DNA of 50,610 bases from a bacterium (GTDB lineage: Bacteria; Margulisbacteria; Marinamargulisbacteria; JAHFDA01): assembly GCA_023249225.1 (NCBI GenBank), contig JAHFDA010000015.1, positions 1 through 50,610 of the forward strand, given 5' to 3'. The notes beneath the pieces are model-generated. The model made no database searches. It had not been told where the DNA came from and was given only the letters and a program-made list of their open reading frames with translations. Below are positions 11,270 to 24,555 of this stretch, in pieces (positions within the stretch are counted from its first letter, which is position 1; each line of letters opens with the position of its first letter). The position numbers and the translations under genes were made by a program.

Positions 11270-11716
11270 CTAATTGTTTTCCAGCCAATCTGCATCTCCA
11301 AGATCTTTCGGCCGACCTGCCGCCTTTTTATTGATGAGCAGGTCATTTTTTCCGATGATAGAAAATGGCACGCCATCGACCTCTATCATTTTTTGGTTTT
11401 TGACCGCCTGATCAAAAGTGACGCCATCGATGGTGGTTGTAATATCAATGCGCCGTGGCGAAACTCCAATCTGTAATACAATTTCTGGCTTGAGAAAATC
11501 TAACTCGGATATGCCCGCCAATGGGGCTCCAAATGCCTTGAGAGCCTGCATGATTTTTTTTGCGTTAAATATTGAACACCGCACAAATAAGTCGATATCT
11601 CCGGTAGCGCGCGGCAAACCATGTGCGGCCAGGGCATAAGCACCCACCACCATATACTCGACTTCAGCGCCGTTGAAGGCTAATAATATGTCTCTGAAAT
11701 CGCTGTTGAGTAACAT
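11270..11716 (-). CDS. Nucleotidyltransferase-fold protein (DUF6036/MNT-like)
   Basis: The protein has 148 residues. VEYMVVGAYALAAHGLPRATGDIDLFV (residues 19-45) is the signature of the minimal nucleotidyltransferase fold, with metal-binding Asp40 and Asp42. The rest (ALKAFGAPL, LQIGVSPRRIDITTTIDG, VPFSIIGKNDLLINKKAAGRPKDLGD) follows the pattern of the small DUF6036-type proteins often paired with a short upstream gene and regarded as toxin-antitoxin-like. The ATG lies within the 3' part of that short gene and overlaps it by 53 bases; AGGCGA just before the start can serve as ribosome site. The activity (toxin or antitoxin, nucleotide donor) is unproven. Confidence 0.82.
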   Translation of the reverse strand: MLLNSDFRDILLAFNGAEVEYMVVGAYALAAHGLPRATGDIDLFVRCSIFNAKKIMQALKAFGAPLAGISELDFLKPEIVLQIGVSPRRIDITTTIDGVTFDQAVKNQKMIEVDGVPFSIIGKNDLLINKKAAGRPKDLGDADWLENN

Positions 11717-15519: not shown

Positions 15520-15587
15520 TGGGGATAAGCATAACAGCCCAGAAAACGTAACAGAAAAAATGAAATCTATTTCAACTTTAATCGATG

Positions 15588-15593
15588 TATAGC
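15588..15593 (+). promoter_or_regulatory. Possible -10 box before pepN
   Basis: TATAGC is followed by six bases and the ATG at 15600. It departs from TANNNT at the last base, and no -35 box is seen, so this is a weak case of the leaderless pattern. If correct, translation starts at 15600 and not at the in-frame ATG at 15585. Confidence 0.35.
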
Positions 15594-15599
15594 ATTGCT

Positions 15600-18326
15600 A
15601 TGCCAACGCCTACTCTCACCACCACGCCTATCCAACATAAAGCCATCGCCACGACCCCTGCCCCCGTAATCGAAAAACCCCAGGAAATATTTTTAAAAGA
15701 CTACGCCCCGCCGACCTACCTCGTAGAACAGGTGGATCTGACTTTTGAATTGGATGAGACTGCCACCACCGTGCGTTCGCGTCTGGAGATCCGGCGCAAT
15801 CATTCGGGCGCCGCGCTGCCGCTGGAATTGAACGGCGATGAAGTGGAACTTGTAAGTGTGCGCCTTAACGGCCGTCTGCTCACCAAAGATGAATACCGTC
15901 TGGAAGCGGTCTATCAAAAGGAAAATAAACTGGTGATTCCGGACGTTCCGGAATTTTTCACCCTGGAAGTGGAAACACGGATCAATCCCCAGACCAACAC
16001 GGCGCTGTCCGGACTGTTCATGTCGGGCGGCATGTTTTGCACCCAGTGCGAACCGCTCGGCTTTCGGCGCATGACCTATTTTGTGGACCGGCCCGACAAC
16101 ATGGCCCGTTACCGCACCACGATCATTGCCGACAAAAGCAAGTACCCGGTGCTGCTTTCGAACGGCAACCCCGTGGAAAGCCGTGACCTGCCTGGGGGAA
16201 AACACATCGCCACATGGGAAGATCCGTTTAAAAAACCAAGTTACCTTTTTGCCCTGGTTGCAGGCGATCTGGTACCGCTCGAAGATACTTTTATCACCCG
16301 TTCGGGGCGAAGCATTGCGCTGCGCATTTTTGTAGAAGCGGCCAATCTTGAGAAAACCCGCTTTGCCATGGAGGCCCTTAAAAAAGCCATGCAATGGGAC
16401 GAGGAAAAATACGGCCGCGAGTATGATTTAGATATTTTTATGATCGTGGCCGTAGACCACTTTGTTTTTGGCGCCATGGAAAACAAGGGCCTGAACGTGT
16501 TTAATGCCAAGGTCGTACTGGCCAAACCCGAAACGGCTACTGATAGCGACTACAGTCACATTTTAGGCGTTGTGGCCCACGAATATTTTCACAATTGGTC
16601 GGGCAACCGTGTCACCTGCCGCGACTGGTTCCAGCTTAGCCTCAAAGAAGGTTTTACCGTTTTTCGTGATCAGACTTTTCAACAAGATATGCTGTCGCAA
16701 GGCGTCTGCCGCATCAAAGACGTATTGTTTTTGCGCGGGGTTCAGTTTTTCCAAGATGCAGGCGCCATGGCCCACCCTGTACGGCCAGAGTCGTTTATCA
16801 GTGTTGAAAACTTCTACACGCCGACCGTCTACGAAAAAGGGGCGGAAGTCATCCGTATGATGCATACCCTGCTGGGACCAGAAAGATTCCGGCGCGGTGC
16901 GGATTTATATTTTGAGCGCCACGATGGTCAGGCGGTAACCTGCGACGACTTTGTGGCCGCCATGGCGGACGCCAACGACTTTGACTTTGGCCAGTTCAAA
17001 TTGTGGTACAGCCAGTCCGGCACACCTGTGCTGGACATCGAGCGCCATTACGATCCGGCCACCCAAACCTACACGCTCAAGATCAGACAAAGCTGCCCGC
17101 CCACACCGGGCCAAGCCATCAAGGAAGCATTTCACATTCCGATACGCATGGGTCTGCTGGGATCCGATGGCAAGGATCTGCCCTTGCAATTGGAAGGTGA
17201 ATCAGAACCGCAGGGAACAACCCGTGTGCTGGAGCTGACAAACGCCGAAACAGTATTCCGATTTGTAAATGTGACGCAGGAACCCGTGCCATCACTGCTG
17301 CGCGGTTTTTCAGCCCCGGTCAAGCTGAACATTGATCTGACCGATAACGAGCTGGTGTTCTTAATGGCCAACGATAGCGACGACTTTAACCGCTGGGAAG
17401 CTGGTCAGAAAATGGCCTTGAACCTTGCGCTAAAGCTGGTAGACGACTATCGGCAAGGCCGCCCCCTGCATCTGGATGCCTCCTTTACCGAAGCGTTCCG
17501 TAAAATCCTGCTGGATCGCAGCCTGGACAAGCAGTTTGCCGCCCTGGCACTCACCCTGCCCGAAGAAGCTTACATTTGCGATCAACTGGATGAAATCGAT
17601 CCACTGGCCGTGCATCAGACATATAAGTTTATGCACAAAACCCTGGCACAGGCGCTTAAAGACGATTTGCAAGCCGTTTATCACGAAAACTGCAGTACGG
17701 AACCCTACTATTTTGACGCAGCTTCGGTCGGTCGGCGCAGCCTGAAAAACCTGTGCCTGGAATACCTTATGGAACTCGAAGAAGCTGCTGTCATCGCGCT
17801 GTGCCATCAGCAATTTCAAAACGCCACCAATATGACGGATCAGTTCAGTGCTTTAGAACTCCTGGCCAACCACGATGGCCCAGAACGCCAGAGCGCCCTG
17901 GATGATTTTTACCGGCAGTGGCAGCACGACACGCTGGCCATTTTAAAGTGGTTTGCTGCCCAATCTATCGCCGAGCGGCCTGATGTTTTGGACAAAATCC
18001 GGCAGCTGATGGAACATCCTGCCTTCGAAATGAGTACCCCCAACAAGGTACGGGCCCTGATTCGGAACTTTGCCGAAAATAACACCAACAACGTTGCCTT
18101 TCACGACCCCAGCGGCCGCGGTTACGAATTTTATGCCGACCAGATCATCCGCATGAACGCCATCAACGCGCAAGTGGCTTCAGGCATGGCCAAGGTTTTT
18201 GCGCGTTGGAAAGACTATGCCGCGCCTTATCGCGAACTGATGCGCCATGAACTGGAGCGCCTGCTGGCCACGCCCGACCTTTGCAAAGAGGTATACGAAG
18301 TCGTTAAAAAGTCGTTAGAAGGTTAA
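15600..18326 (+). CDS. pepN: Aminopeptidase N (M1 family)
   Basis: From the ATG at 15600 the protein has 908 residues (913 from the ATG at 15585), slightly longer than the usual 870 because of a Thr/Pro-rich N-terminus. It has the GAMEN exopeptidase motif (FGAMENKGLNVFN, near residue 290) and the zinc site HEYFH at 327-331 with Glu350 in KEGFTV, i.e. HExxH-x18-E. The domain order matches E. coli-type PepN: N-terminal beta domain, thermolysin-like domain, small beta domain, C-terminal helical bowl. It removes N-terminal residues from peptides in the cytosol. Its final nine codons (VVKKSLEG plus stop) recur 5.1 kb downstream (23425-23451). Confidence 0.97.
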   Translation: MPTPTLTTTPIQHKAIATTPAPVIEKPQEIFLKDYAPPTYLVEQVDLTFELDETATTVRSRLEIRRNHSGAALPLELNGDEVELVSVRLNGRLLTKDEYRLEAVYQKENKLVIPDVPEFFTLEVETRINPQTNTALSGLFMSGGMFCTQCEPLGFRRMTYFVDRPDNMARYRTTIIADKSKYPVLLSNGNPVESRDLPGGKHIATWEDPFKKPSYLFALVAGDLVPLEDTFITRSGRSIALRIFVEAANLEKTRFAMEALKKAMQWDEEKYGREYDLDIFMIVAVDHFVFGAMENKGLNVFNAKVVLAKPETATDSDYSHILGVVAHEYFHNWSGNRVTCRDWFQLSLKEGFTVFRDQTFQQDMLSQGVCRIKDVLFLRGVQFFQDAGAMAHPVRPESFISVENFYTPTVYEKGAEVIRMMHTLLGPERFRRGADLYFERHDGQAVTCDDFVAAMADANDFDFGQFKLWYSQSGTPVLDIERHYDPATQTYTLKIRQSCPPTPGQAIKEAFHIPIRMGLLGSDGKDLPLQLEGESEPQGTTRVLELTNAETVFRFVNVTQEPVPSLLRGFSAPVKLNIDLTDNELVFLMANDSDDFNRWEAGQKMALNLALKLVDDYRQGRPLHLDASFTEAFRKILLDRSLDKQFAALALTLPEEAYICDQLDEIDPLAVHQTYKFMHKTLAQALKDDLQAVYHENCSTEPYYFDAASVGRRSLKNLCLEYLMELEEAAVIALCHQQFQNATNMTDQFSALELLANHDGPERQSALDDFYRQWQHDTLAILKWFAAQSIAERPDVLDKIRQLMEHPAFEMSTPNKVRALIRNFAENNTNNVAFHDPSGRGYEFYADQIIRMNAINAQVASGMAKVFARWKDYAAPYRELMRHELERLLATPDLCKEVYEVVKKSLEG
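18300..18326 (+). repeat. Direct repeat copy 1: 3' end of pepN
   Basis: The last nine codons of pepN (VVKKSLEG and TAA) are repeated at 23425-23451. The two copies differ at 5 of 27 bases, and every difference is synonymous. The four bases after the stop (ATGG here, TTGG there) match at three positions. Confidence 0.7.
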
Positions 18327-18351: not shown

Positions 18352-21300
18352 TCATATCCAATCCACAAAATCTGCTTCGAACTCCGTCACCAGACTCTGA
18401 TACGCACCTTCATCAAACGCCTGGCGCGCAACACTGAAATAAAATGTAAGTTCTTTCAGGCGTTCACGGGGGCCCAAGCCGCTATAGTGCGCAAGCAAGC
18501 GGGACTTATTTTGGAGAAACGTGGCACGATCTTGCAAGCCCCATGCCGCCAGCATCTGCAAACCCAGCAGTTGCGGATGCCCGGGTTGGTAGTAACTGAC
18601 CCGGGCAAGTACCTGTTGGGCTTCGTTAAATTCATGTTGCGCCATAAGATTGGCCGCATAAAGTTTGCGGTCGTTTAAATAAAACGGGCTGTGCAGTGGC
18701 AGCTTGGCAAAGGCCGCGTTCGAAAGCGCCATGTCGCCGCACAGATGGGCAATGAGCCCGGCATAATGCAAAGCCATATGCCGATCACCCAATTGCTCAA
18801 GCAACAGCCGCGCAACGTTTAGCGCTTTGACCGTATCTTTAGATTCGACATGCATCAGGCCAAGTTCACCCGCAAACAGGGGATGATTCGGAAACTGTGC
18901 TTTCAGGCGGCGTACTTCCCTTAGCAAGTCACTGCGCCGCCCGGCCTGACGCAAGGCGGCAACATAAAAATCCGCAAAGTCTTCGTCCGCCGGGTATTGC
19001 TCGTGATAAGCCTGCGTTTCCAGAACATGATCTCCCAGTTTTTCTTGTCCGTAACTCAAGAAACAGAATAACTTTTTCCAATTGGGGTGTTCGTCATGGC
19101 TTAACATTTGCTTGCAGTGTTCCAGGGCTTCGGCCGCAAAACCATGTTTATGAAGTTCAAGCAGCATTTGGTGAATATCATGCCGGTGAAGTTCAAAGCT
19201 CCTGGAGCCGATTGTCCGGGCGATGCTAATCTGGGCCAACAAGTCCGCTTCAAGAAGGCACCCATAGCGGCAGAGCAGCCCCACATATTCTAAAACCAGT
19301 TCGCAGGTGTCTATGTCATGGCCGCCCAGCTTCATTAACTTGCTTGCGCCGCCACGTCGATTGCCCGTCGCCAACTCAATTTCGGCCAGTGTTCTCAACC
19401 AATCACTGTTTTCCTCAAGATCCTTTTCATCAAACTCCGGCACCAGAGCCTGGGCTTCTACAAAGCGGCCTTCATGGATCAAAATACCGATTTTTATTTT
19501 TTTTAGGCTGTCTGCAACCCATTCTTCCGGGGATTCCGGCAGGGCGGCCTCGGTGGCAGCCACAGCCTCCCATGCCGCCGCAGGTCGACCCTGCTGCAAA
19601 TAAAATTTGACGATGTCCTCCAGCAGGGTCGTATTCGGCAAATCGTTGGCATGCAGCGCTTTTAAACAGGTCTCGGTATTTTCAAAATCGCCGGAATACC
19701 AATAAATATTGGCCAGCGTTTTTCCAAGTTCTTTGGCCTGCGGATGTAATTGCATGGCAAGCGTGAGCATCTCGATGGCCACGTGGGTTTGCCCGGCTTC
19801 ACAAGCAATGTGGGCAGAAACCAAATGGTAGCGCGGGGTATCGCCGGTCACGGTCTTGATGATTTCGAGCAGCTCCACGGACGCGTGAATAAACTTGGCA
19901 TTCGCAACTCCGTAAATGGCAGACAGGATATCGCCCGCATGGTCGGCATCCACCCAACGTTCAGCCACGGCCTGGCGTAAATACCGGGTCACGCTCCCGA
20001 TAGCATCTTTGTCGAGCCGCATGGCGGCATGCCGCAGCCATTCTTGAGCAATTTCCCCAATGTTATACATATGATCGACTAAAACCTGCAAGTCATTCTG
20101 CGCCTCGGCATAGCGGCCCTGATGCATGCGTAAACTGGCGCGATCATAGCGCGCACGTAAAAAGCGCGGTTCCGCGTTAATAAGTTCATCCAGCAGGGCC
20201 AACTGGCGTTCCGGTTGAGCCAAGCGGCTGAACCGCAGACGATCGTTCCACAAGGCGTAGTTGTAGGGCTGTAAATCGGTGCTGGCGCGGTAAGTCTCGG
20301 CAGCCCGCACAAGGTCAAATTTTCTGGAATACAGGGCGGCCAGTTCCGCATGATGTCTGGCCAGACCGGGTTCCTCCCGAATCAGACGCTCGTAATGGGC
20401 AATGGCCAAATCGTTATCCCAGTCTTTCCACGGCCGGGCCGCAATGGCCGGCATGCATGCCTGGGTTTCACGGCCAAGATCAATCACCCGCCGGGCCCAC
20501 TCACGGGCCGCCAGAGTACGATCGCCACTGGCCTGTCCGAGATCCCACTGGGCGCCGGCGTTGTCGCCGTTGTATTCGATCAAGTAATGTTTCCACAATC
20601 CGTCAGCTTCAAGACGCGGAATCAAGTCGATACCCGTCCAAATCAGGGCGCGGTAAGGCGTGGTGCTGTTCAATTCGGCCTTGGCCTTTTGGGCAGCCAG
20701 TTCCACGGCCTGATAAGTGGCCAGGGCCGTTTCGCAAAGGTTGGCCCACATGGCTTGTTTACTCTCGTCCGAAAGTTTCCAGTGCAAACACAATTGGGCA
20801 AAAGTCATGGGTTTGGCCGTCAGCGAAATATTAATGGGGCCGCCGCGTGGGCCAAAGCGGGCCACCGCATCGATCACCATGGGCCGCCCTTCGGAATCCA
20901 ATGTAATAAAGACGCGGAAATTGACGTCTTGCTCAACCCCATCAATCTCAAAGGGCGGCGGGTTAATACGTTTTTGAATGATCAGATCGATGTGGTTGAC
21001 CCGGCAGCAATCGATAAATTCCAGGGCTGCTTTAAAAAACAAGGGGTCACTCAAGCGGCCCATGCGTATACCCACCCCGCCGTCGGTGGCGCCGGGCTTG
21101 ATCACGATATCGTCGTAATCCGGCAAAAGATTCCGCAGCACAGACTCAACATCAGCGGCGTGGCGCGGACTGATTTCCCGAATCGGAAATGTGGCGTTAA
21201 ACCAGCGGTGCAACGGGGAACGGATATCGCTGTGGCGCAGAACAATGCTGTCCGGCTCCGGCACCCCCGCTTTTTGAATAATGCCCTGGGCAATATCCTT

Positions 21301-22338
21301 GTGATCGCAAACCGTTTCCTGAAAGTAGTCGCCATTTATGGGCACAATGTCGTTGCGATATGACGTGACATGCGGAATCACGGGGTTTTCAAAAAAAACT
21401 TTTTCGTAACCGGCAGCCGTGCGTATGATGGCCCGACTCACTTTGATCACCCACTCGGCGCCGGCGCCATACTCGCTGGCATCGGTTTCTCCCGACACCA
21501 GTAGTAGCGGCACGGCGCCCGTTTCGTACAAGGCTTCGGCCTGGGTCAGGCAGTCGTCGTAATACGGCGGCGGAATCAACACCAGCACCGCATCGCCGGG
21601 AATGAGTTCAGATGCCGGTCTGGCCGGTTTGGTGGAATCAAAGGCCGGAAATCCGTAGGCCCGCAGCGCCATTAAAAACGACATGCGATCCATGGCAAGC
21701 GGATGGATGCTCAAGTGGCCATAATGTTCCGGAAAAACATTCAAATGACCCTGGATCAAATCCCGCAGTTTGGGGGCGATCACTTGCAAGGCGTCGTCAT
21801 GGAAACAGGTGTACCCCTTATCCACGGGATCCATGGCCCGGCGAAAAGACGACTGGCGGCGGGGCGTCAGGGAATTTCCCCACAGCAATTTAAAACACAG
21901 GCGCTCAAAGGCGCCGTCGGCATGGCCGGCCTGTTTTTTAAGTTCCACGAAATACACGATATTCAAGACGTCGCTCAAAATCTTTTGAAAATATTCCGTT
22001 GGCTGCTGCTCGCTGGCGCCATGCAACGGACGCCAGATCAAGGTAGACCAGTCGCGCCGGAAGCGGATCAGCTCATGCAGGCTGAAATGTTTAACCAGGC
22101 TGCGGTACATCTGCGCAGTCTGTAATAATTCGGGACGCTGCAATGCAGCCTCCGCATGTGAAGCACCCCACGTCTCGAATTCCAAAACAACCGATTCAAT
22201 CACCGCGCGCGCCTGGCGGAGAAGTTCCTCGGCATTGACCGAATCCTCTGCCGTGGCCAACTGCGATAGCTGGGTCAAGGCCCCCACGGCGGCTTTATAA
22301 CGGAGGGCAATGTGTTTCCGGTGCATATATAGGGGCAT
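18352..22338 (-). CDS. ATP-grasp ligase fused to long TPR array
   Basis: The protein has 1328 residues. Residues 1-330 are helical and unassigned. Residues about 350-610 read as an ATP-grasp domain: DIVIKPGATDGGVG near 410-425 (ATP-binding Lys and Gly-rich loop), NFRVFITL near 473, AVARFGPRGG, and the metal-binding E-x-N in YLIEYNGDNAG near 587. From about residue 640 to the end are TPR-like helical repeats (for example NDLAIAHYERLIREEPGLARHHAELAALYSRKFDLVRAAETYRAS). ATP-grasp enzymes join a carboxylate to an amine or thiol through an acyl-phosphate; here the TPR part probably holds a partner or peptide substrate. The ATG lies six bases after TATATT. It converges on pepN and diverges from 22425. 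The substrate is unknown. Confidence 0.85.
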   Translation of the reverse strand: MPLYMHRKHIALRYKAAVGALTQLSQLATAEDSVNAEELLRQARAVIESVVLEFETWGASHAEAALQRPELLQTAQMYRSLVKHFSLHELIRFRRDWSTLIWRPLHGASEQQPTEYFQKILSDVLNIVYFVELKKQAGHADGAFERLCFKLLWGNSLTPRRQSSFRRAMDPVDKGYTCFHDDALQVIAPKLRDLIQGHLNVFPEHYGHLSIHPLAMDRMSFLMALRAYGFPAFDSTKPARPASELIPGDAVLVLIPPPYYDDCLTQAEALYETGAVPLLLVSGETDASEYGAGAEWVIKVSRAIIRTAAGYEKVFFENPVIPHVTSYRNDIVPINGDYFQETVCDHKDIAQGIIQKAGVPEPDSIVLRHSDIRSPLHRWFNATFPIREISPRHAADVESVLRNLLPDYDDIVIKPGATDGGVGIRMGRLSDPLFFKAALEFIDCCRVNHIDLIIQKRINPPPFEIDGVEQDVNFRVFITLDSEGRPMVIDAVARFGPRGGPINISLTAKPMTFAQLCLHWKLSDESKQAMWANLCETALATYQAVELAAQKAKAELNSTTPYRALIWTGIDLIPRLEADGLWKHYLIEYNGDNAGAQWDLGQASGDRTLAAREWARRVIDLGRETQACMPAIAARPWKDWDNDLAIAHYERLIREEPGLARHHAELAALYSRKFDLVRAAETYRASTDLQPYNYALWNDRLRFSRLAQPERQLALLDELINAEPRFLRARYDRASLRMHQGRYAEAQNDLQVLVDHMYNIGEIAQEWLRHAAMRLDKDAIGSVTRYLRQAVAERWVDADHAGDILSAIYGVANAKFIHASVELLEIIKTVTGDTPRYHLVSAHIACEAGQTHVAIEMLTLAMQLHPQAKELGKTLANIYWYSGDFENTETCLKALHANDLPNTTLLEDIVKFYLQQGRPAAAWEAVAATEAALPESPEEWVADSLKKIKIGILIHEGRFVEAQALVPEFDEKDLEENSDWLRTLAEIELATGNRRGGASKLMKLGGHDIDTCELVLEYVGLLCRYGCLLEADLLAQISIARTIGSRSFELHRHDIHQMLLELHKHGFAAEALEHCKQMLSHDEHPNWKKLFCFLSYGQEKLGDHVLETQAYHEQYPADEDFADFYVAALRQAGRRSDLLREVRRLKAQFPNHPLFAGELGLMHVESKDTVKALNVARLLLEQLGDRHMALHYAGLIAHLCGDMALSNAAFAKLPLHSPFYLNDRKLYAANLMAQHEFNEAQQVLARVSYYQPGHPQLLGLQMLAAWGLQDRATFLQNKSRLLAHYSGLGPRERLKELTFYFSVARQAFDEGAYQSLVTEFEADFVDWI

Positions 22339-23463: not shown

Positions 23464-23496
23464 TTGACAAAATGTATTATATTTAATACATTTTGT
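23464..23496 (+). promoter_or_regulatory. Promoter overlaid by perfect palindrome, XRE-gene operator
   Basis: TTGACA (23464-23469), a 17-base spacer and TACATT (23487-23492) form a strong promoter, and the ATG follows six bases later at 23499. A perfect 13-bp inverted repeat, ACAAAATGTATTA (23467-23479) and TAATACATTTTGT (23484-23496) around TATT, spans the -35 to -10 region. This is the expected operator for repression by the XRE protein encoded directly downstream. Confidence 0.8.
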
Positions 23497-23498
23497 TA

Positions 23499-23984
23499 AT
23501 GCTCCATTTTGGTCCCCAACTCGCGGCCTGGCGACTGGCCAGAAACCTGACTCAGGCCCAGCTGGCACAAAAAGCGCACGTATCGCGCCCTAACCTTTCG
23601 GCCATCGAACAAGGCAAACGCGACATCACGCTGGGCACATTGGATGCGCTGGCGCGGGCGCTGGGCGTAACGCCTGGCAAGCTTTTGGACGAGCAGCCTC
23701 CGCTACCTTTTCGGCTCGACGACCGGCATTTGATCGACGCGGTGGCGCGAGCAGTGGTCAGCGGCAAACGTCCGTTTGAAGCAGCGCTAAATCTTTATGC
23801 CGATGATATGGCTGCGTTAATCACCCGTAAATTAGGTGCTGCTCGAGCGCCAGGTTTAAGTCGGGTATCACATTTAAAATGGATCAATGGCCAACGTCCC
23901 CAGGTTCTGCGTCGGCGATACGGTGCCAGCCTGGTAAAGCGCTTGCTTGATCGAGTCGAAAAACATCTACCCTATGCTGGCTAA
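23499..23984 (+). CDS. XRE-family transcription regulator (putative antitoxin)
   Basis: The ATG at 23499 (161 residues) is chosen because it is six bases after the -10 box; a TTG two codons upstream lies inside the operator. Residues 7-60 form a Cro/CI-type helix-turn-helix (LAAWRLARNLTQAQLAQKAHVSRPNLSAIEQGKRDITLGTLDALARALGV). The C-terminal 100 residues have a basic part (HLKWINGQRPQVLRRRYGASLVKRLLDRVEK) and may bind the partner. The gene overlaps the next by 11 bases. Together with the palindromic operator this is the layout of an autoregulated toxin-antitoxin operon, with this protein as likely DNA-binding antitoxin. Confidence 0.88.
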   Translation: MLHFGPQLAAWRLARNLTQAQLAQKAHVSRPNLSAIEQGKRDITLGTLDALARALGVTPGKLLDEQPPLPFRLDDRHLIDAVARAVVSGKRPFEAALNLYADDMAALITRKLGAARAPGLSRVSHLKWINGQRPQVLRRRYGASLVKRLLDRVEKHLPYAG

Positions 23985-24555
23985 GGATATTGATCATTTT
24001 TTTGAGTGCCTGGATAAAGAACTCCACGCGCCTACGCGCGTGATATTGATTGGCGGGGCTGCCGCCACATTGTACGGCAGCAAGCGGCCCACCGAAGATA
24101 TCGATTTTGAACTGCAAACTTCTGAACCCGAAGATCAGCTTGCCAAGGCAATCTTGGCCGCTGAAATGGCCAGCGGCATTAAGGCCCAGTACTCAACCGA
24201 CATCGACCACTGGGGCATGATTTCACTGGGCGATTACCGCAAACATACGCGGCCCTACAAAAAAATCGGAAAAATAACAGTTGAACTTTTGCAACCCGAA
24301 TACTGGTCCATCGGCAAAGTTTCCCGTTATTACGACAGCGACGTGGAAGATATGGTGCTGGTGTTCAAGCGTCAAAAAACCGACCCTAACCACTTGCTCG
24401 CCGTGTGGCAAGAGGCCCTAAAATACAGTCCGGTCTCCAACGCACTTTTTCTTTTCAAACAGCAGGTGGCGCAGTTTTTCCGGCAGCATGGCAGAGGAAT
24501 TTGGGGAGCTAAAGTGCCCCTGCTCAACCCCTTTGAAGCGCCTAAAAAATCCTGA
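23974..24555 (+). CDS. Nucleotidyltransferase-fold protein (putative toxin, AbiEii/DUF6036-like)
   Basis: The ATG at 23974 overlaps the end of the XRE gene; a TTG at 23947 is rejected. The product has 193 residues. LAKDIDHFFECLDKELHAPTRVILIGGAAATLYGSKRPTEDIDFEL carries the minimal nucleotidyltransferase pattern, with GG near residue 27 and metal-binding Asp42 and Asp44. The remainder is mixed alpha/beta with VELLQPEYWSIGKVSRYYDSDVEDMVLVFKRQKTD. Such proteins occur with XRE or AbiEi-like regulators as type IV or related toxin-antitoxin modules. Whether it transfers NMP to tRNA or protein is unknown. It belongs to the same broad fold as the 11270-11716 protein but to a different subgroup. Confidence 0.8.
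   Translation: MLAKDIDHFFECLDKELHAPTRVILIGGAAATLYGSKRPTEDIDFELQTSEPEDQLAKAILAAEMASGIKAQYSTDIDHWGMISLGDYRKHTRPYKKIGKITVELLQPEYWSIGKVSRYYDSDVEDMVLVFKRQKTDPNHLLAVWQEALKYSPVSNALFLFKQQVAQFFRQHGRGIWGAKVPLLNPFEAPKKS

Follow-up and report, generated by a model that had tools for sequence, protein, structure and literature searches.

Predicted ATP-grasp ligases with a built-in TPR arm: a candidate family of protein- or peptide-modifying enzymes expanded in a margulisbacterial genome

The ATP-grasp superfamily is not confined to amide-forming ligases and also holds enzymes of other chemistry, such as kinases and an RNA ligase. Tubulin-tyrosine ligase (TTL) and the TTLL glutamylases are protein-modifying ATP-grasp ligases, eukaryotic and tubulin-specific, that carry no TPR fusion. 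In O-GlcNAc transferase (OGT), a long TPR superhelix joined to the catalytic domain selects the protein targets. The alpha-L-glutamate ligases RimK and MptN (TIGR00768, NF040720) have the ATP-grasp fold and its catalytic residues; RimK, with ~300 aa, has neither a TPR arm nor a helical N-terminal domain. Graspetide synthetases (e.g., PDB 7mgv) share the fold, and some graspetide loci contain genes for TPR proteins (PMC8939145). An arginine in the first strand of the second lobe marks a peptide-bond-forming ATP-grasp assemblage (PMC4431377, section 6), which consists almost entirely of ligases making peptide-like linkages, while in the R2K/CDC123 clade the linker lysine is lost and a second lysine in the RAGNYA lobe compensates (PMC4431377). 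A literature search with limited coverage of subscription papers retrieved no ATP-grasp/TPR fusion.

Here, we describe such a fusion, encoded in a 50,610-nucleotide stretch of DNA (the window) on contig C79 of the genome G000 (2.83 Mb, 97% complete). The gene, at 18352-22338 on the minus strand, is an open reading frame of 1328 codons that starts with ATG and has no internal stop. Its coding status is backed by four paralogs with the same architecture in the same genome, in line with the initial annotation, which had called a 1328-residue ATP-grasp/TPR protein. The gene is convergent with that of aminopeptidase N (15585-18326), whose nearest match in the plasmid set is from Azospirillum (56%); on its other side, a 348-aa ORF without a family assignment (the 22425 gene) is transcribed divergently. 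The protein is built from four regions, all encoded on the minus strand: a helical N-terminal domain common to the paralogs and without a fold assignment (residues 1-205, 21724-22338; pLDDT 33-85); an alpha/beta pre-ATP-grasp domain (residues 215-345, 21304-21696), delineated by position, secondary structure and Foldseek alignments to Ddl that cover 430-450 columns; the ATP-grasp catalytic domain with a conserved C-terminal helix (residues 346-630, 20449-21303); and a degenerate TPR superhelix of ~20 helical hairpins (residues 635-1328, 18355-20436). The N-terminal third had at first been described as unassigned, which holds for residues 1-205, whereas ~130 residues (about 215-345) are accounted for by the pre-ATP-grasp domain.

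The ATP-grasp fold was settled by a structure model, the Pfam match alone being sub-threshold. An AlphaFold2 model of residues 1-690, built on an input alignment with 21 homologs, gave a pTM of 0.83, with residues 220-630 mostly above pLDDT 84. The structure prediction and fold search of the N-terminal part proposed in the initial annotation thus returned an ATP-grasp fold: Foldseek found 291 matches in the PDB at E <= 0.001, and ATP-grasp ligases made up all 50 matches listed. The top matches, with E values from 4e-8 to 2e-6 and target-normalised TM scores of at most 0.71, were Ddl (3q1k, E 4e-8), RimK (5zk6 and 7qys, TM 0.67-0.71), DcsG (6jil) and a graspetide synthetase (7mgv). Independently of structure, a sequence profile of the family matched the glutathione-synthetase part of GshAB (1.6e-6), TTL (2.9e-6) and Ddl (4.6e-6) in the PDB; the alignment to TTL is partial, falling into two stretches that correspond to both lobes and include the E-V-N strand. 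Formal membership in a described family was not obtained. The nearest Pfam models are ATPgrasp_YheCD (PF14398) and ATPgrasp_ST (PF14397), which differ in architecture, and the window protein scores 22.0 bits against PF14398, under the gathering cut-off of 26.8 that only one homolog passes (L013, 28.1). Similarly, the NCBIfam models rimK_fam (TIGR00768) and MptN are each matched weakly by 11 of the 21 homologs, while the window protein, ~12% identical to RimK, matches no NCBIfam ligase model, TIGR00768 included. The earlier view that it belongs to no characterised family therefore stands with respect to both RimK and PF14398.

Both lobes of the fold are present, as are the two ATP-binding lysines, the acidic residue and the E-x-N metal site. 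K347, the linker lysine at the N-terminal edge of the ATP-grasp domain (21298-21300, minus strand, as for all sites below), K414, the nucleotide-binding lysine of a V-I-K-P motif (21097-21099), R475, and D571, a predicted metal ligand in a G-x-D motif (20626-20628), are invariant across the 21 homologs, and D471, N473, E588 and N590 are kept in at least 90% of them. E588-x-N590 (20569-20577), a predicted metal-binding motif, aligns with the E-V-N of TTL and Ddl. The arginine typical of the peptide-bond-forming assemblage is R475, in the first strand of the second lobe, but it occurs as D471-x-N473-x-R475 (20914-20928) and not as E-x-R. Membership in the R2K/CDC123 clade was ruled out, the linker lysine K347 being kept and invariant. 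Model and conservation together bear out the original description of a core with lysine, arginine and E-x-N positions intact. Since the catalytic residues are retained at ~20% identity between phyla, the core does not look like a dead domain. Taken together, the fold matches, the profile matches and the conserved catalytic residues, arginine included, suggest that the protein probably sits in the Ddl/GshB/RimK/TTL branch as an amide-type (carboxylate-amine) ligase outside the characterised families. Amide or peptide ligation is its likely chemistry on the same grounds, and of the activities first put forward, peptide ligation and protein tagging are still the best guess.

Repeated helical hairpins of 34 residues define the TPR superfamily. 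The TPR nature of the C-terminal arm was settled by Pfam TPR_19, which matches three stretches (34 bits, above the cut-off of 25), and by the structure model, a count of TPR consensus being weak on degenerate repeats (3 matches vs 1.5 in shuffles). The last ~690 residues were modelled with moderate confidence (pLDDT 66) as about 40 consecutive helices arranged in hairpins, and their Foldseek matches are TPR/alpha-solenoid proteins, namely IFT-A, Ctr9, Ski3, OGT (6eou and 1w3b), APC/C and LbcA, so that the ~680 residues of TPR-like helices noted from the sequence are confirmed. In outline, the combination of a catalytic domain with a long TPR superhelix recalls OGT, an analogy only, as the catalytic domain and chemistry of OGT are unrelated. 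From the length of the superhelix, the arm most likely docks a larger substrate, a protein or a peptide; it could, instead, organise a complex.

The four further copies in G000 lie on contigs C9, C53, C57 and C115 and are 1072, 1115, 992 and at least 682 aa long, respectively; the C115 copy is broken by the contig end, and the other four of the five copies are complete. The paralogs can be aligned to the window protein from its N-terminal helices as far as the TPR part, and the positions common to the cores are K414, D471-x-N473-x-R475, G-x-D571 and E588-x-N590. In a phylogenetic tree, the five copies form one clade (support 100/100), which suggests that they arose by expansion within this lineage. 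Most divergent among them is the window copy, on the longest branch (1.72); it alone of the five has changes at W472 and L474, which turn DWNLRVF into DVNFRVF, and it may have shifted in specificity. The same two changes could be read as signs of a catalytically dead ATP-grasp domain kept as a scaffold, a reading that we regard as most improbable, given that every residue of the ATP, metal and arginine sites is retained.

Relatives outside G000 are rare. A single-sequence search of GTDB contigs with the window protein found nothing, and distant homologs were reached only when the five paralogs, aligned over the core, served as the query; four were recovered, three from Omnitrophota and one from Peribacteria. 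In a phylum-by-phylum sampling, strong matches came from 1 genome among the 74 in the phylum to which the window belongs (G000 only, with weak matches in two others), from 10 of 285 Omnitrophota genomes and from 1 of 287 genomes of the phylum that includes Peribacteria. Viral contigs, phages and plasmids yielded no relatives of the ATP-grasp protein. Among the relatives searched, no genome was closer to G000 than the same class, and no 16S rRNA gene was found in the G000 assembly. A 1034-aa protein of genome G073 (L016, 274-3378) has a weakly related ATP-grasp core, and its C-terminal part, judged by eye, resembles a glutamate-cysteine-ligase/amidoligase domain; amidoligases have reportedly been surveyed by Iyer and Aravind (2009). 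The Peribacteria homolog (L013, 6849-8678) is a stand-alone protein of 609 aa, a core without a TPR arm.

We consider it fairly probable that the window protein is a cytosolic ATP-dependent carboxylate-amine ligase whose TPR arm holds the protein or peptide that the enzyme tags or extends. In such a reaction, Mg-ATP would bind between the two ATP-grasp lobes through K347, K414, D571, E588 and N590; a carboxylate would be phosphorylated by ATP to give an acyl-phosphate; and the attack of an amine on this intermediate, close to R475, would yield an amide linkage, either peptide or isopeptide. The larger substrate would be held by the C-terminal superhelix for tagging or extension, much as OGT picks its proteins, and the five divergent paralogs may act on different targets. 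A good deal less probable, in our judgment, is a small-molecule ligase whose product is a cofactor or a dipeptide-like metabolite and whose TPR arm serves only for recruitment to a complex or for regulation. Ddl, DcsG and GshB, which are among the closest folds of solved structure, all act on small molecules, and the 609-aa homolog does without the arm; yet there are five large paralogs, the long arm is kept in all four complete ones, and no biosynthetic operon is evident around any of the five copies.

The neighborhoods of the five copies were compared, and no gene recurs beside them; the loci analyzed yielded neither a substrate nor a precursor peptide nor a partner gene for the ligase. The initial annotation had seen the divergent partner and a flanking repeat as parts of an undescribed system. 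The partner is one of three paralogs, on contigs C79, C71 and C105 (22425-23417 in the window; L025 7370-8377, minus strand; L026 7050-8105, plus strand). Neither the C71 nor the C105 member lies near an ATP-grasp paralog, no copy is found near the other four ATP-grasp paralogs, and the family was absent from the other searched genomes of the phylum. By contig positions and phyletic distribution, the partner thus never accompanies the other four copies. Near the N-terminus, two members of this family show a Tat-like S-R-R; in the window copy, an S-R-R-R is internal. The inverted repeat that flanks the ATP-grasp gene is weak: it is an imperfect 11-nt pair, 14 of 500 shuffles produced an equal one, and the paralogs do not share it. 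What stands of the proposal is an ATP-grasp ligase/TPR fusion outside the characterised families, whereas a "system" is unproven, no neighbor being conserved across the five loci.

A regulator with an HTH motif (23493-23984) overlaps an AbiEii/DUF6036-like nucleotidyltransferase gene (23947-24555) in an arrangement that resembles a type IV toxin-antitoxin pair. Small ORFs related to this pair occur at 11270-11716 and at L024 5339-5854, and two of the paralogs have toxin-antitoxin-like small genes nearby. The closeness of the pair to the ATP-grasp gene, together with the small genes near two paralogs, could speak for a defence or conflict module that also includes the divergent 22425 gene. We hold this to be very unlikely: PADLOC assigned a defence family neither to the ATP-grasp protein nor to the product of the 22425 gene, neither pairing recurs at the other four loci, and relatives are missing from the phages, plasmids and viral contigs searched. 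The earlier suggestion of defence thus finds no support in PADLOC families or in a context conserved across the five loci. A RiPP synthetase of the graspetide type, crosslinking a ribosomal precursor bound through the TPR arm as a leader-binding module, would fit the fold match to 7mgv and the TPR-protein genes of some graspetide loci. This too appears unlikely: a comparison of 499 short ORFs across the five loci, which looks for a precursor common to them and would let one unique to each locus escape, gave no convincing shared candidate, and no maturation or export genes were recognised beside the five loci.

The Omnitrophota relatives differ from the window protein in context. They resemble it in a homologous core of pre-ATP-grasp and ATP-grasp domains bearing the same motifs, but their cores sit in long open frames of 1,109 to 57,099 aa, mostly giant. 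For instance, the frames on G179:C6 and G183:C3 (L035, L037, L054-L058) run for 57,099 and 44,856 codons without a stop, and in both G179 and G140 two tandem ATP-grasp modules lie within one ORF. Those of the giant ORFs that were scanned with Pfam revealed no TPR fusion; one (L011) has HEAT repeats upstream. Giant Omnitrophota proteins have been reported, with functions that are poorly understood (PMC10066038).

Giant ORFs with a short motif specific to their genome were seen at L011 2964-16799, in L048-L053 and L061-L067 (G075), in L054-L056 and L081-L090 (G179), and at L012 2-5671. Six G075 ORFs that reach 3000 aa or more, together 45,938 aa, contain 67 copies of RSELR against 0.14 expected, while the 245 other ORFs (98,572 aa) contain 10, all of them within three that measure 2500, 2209 and 1029 aa; the latter two touch the edge of the sequence stretch examined. 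The median spacing is 366-541 aa in three ORFs, and 53 copies are encoded by nearly all-different codons, so that RSELR is conserved as a peptide and not as DNA. G179 has [SAT]SSP in place of RSELR (82 in giant ORFs vs 1 in ordinary ORFs), and L012 has D[AG]AM (6 copies in 1889 aa). Of nine cases checked, three have the motif 30-41 residues past the ATP-grasp core. Such patterns make the motif a candidate signal for polyprotein cleavage or a candidate spacer; PMC10066038, which deals with giant ORFs, has no word starting with "cleav" in its main text. Only tentatively do we suggest the wider picture of a new protein-tagging ATP-grasp/TPR family, expanded five-fold in G000, with Omnitrophota cousins that would be modules of giant polyproteins cut or spaced at a genome-specific motif (RSELR, [SAT]SSP or D[AG]AM).

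On balance, the proteins are best read as ATP-grasp ligases that modify proteins or peptides, dock them on a TPR arm of their own and make up a rare, new family. If the arm selects proteins for ATP-dependent ligation, the window protein would be a bacterial protein-modification enzyme that carries its own target-selection module, and with five paralogs, several targets would be expected. In addition, the family offers a first handle on catalytic modules inside giant Omnitrophota proteins, for which the 609-residue Peribacteria homolog provides a small, expressible stand-in.
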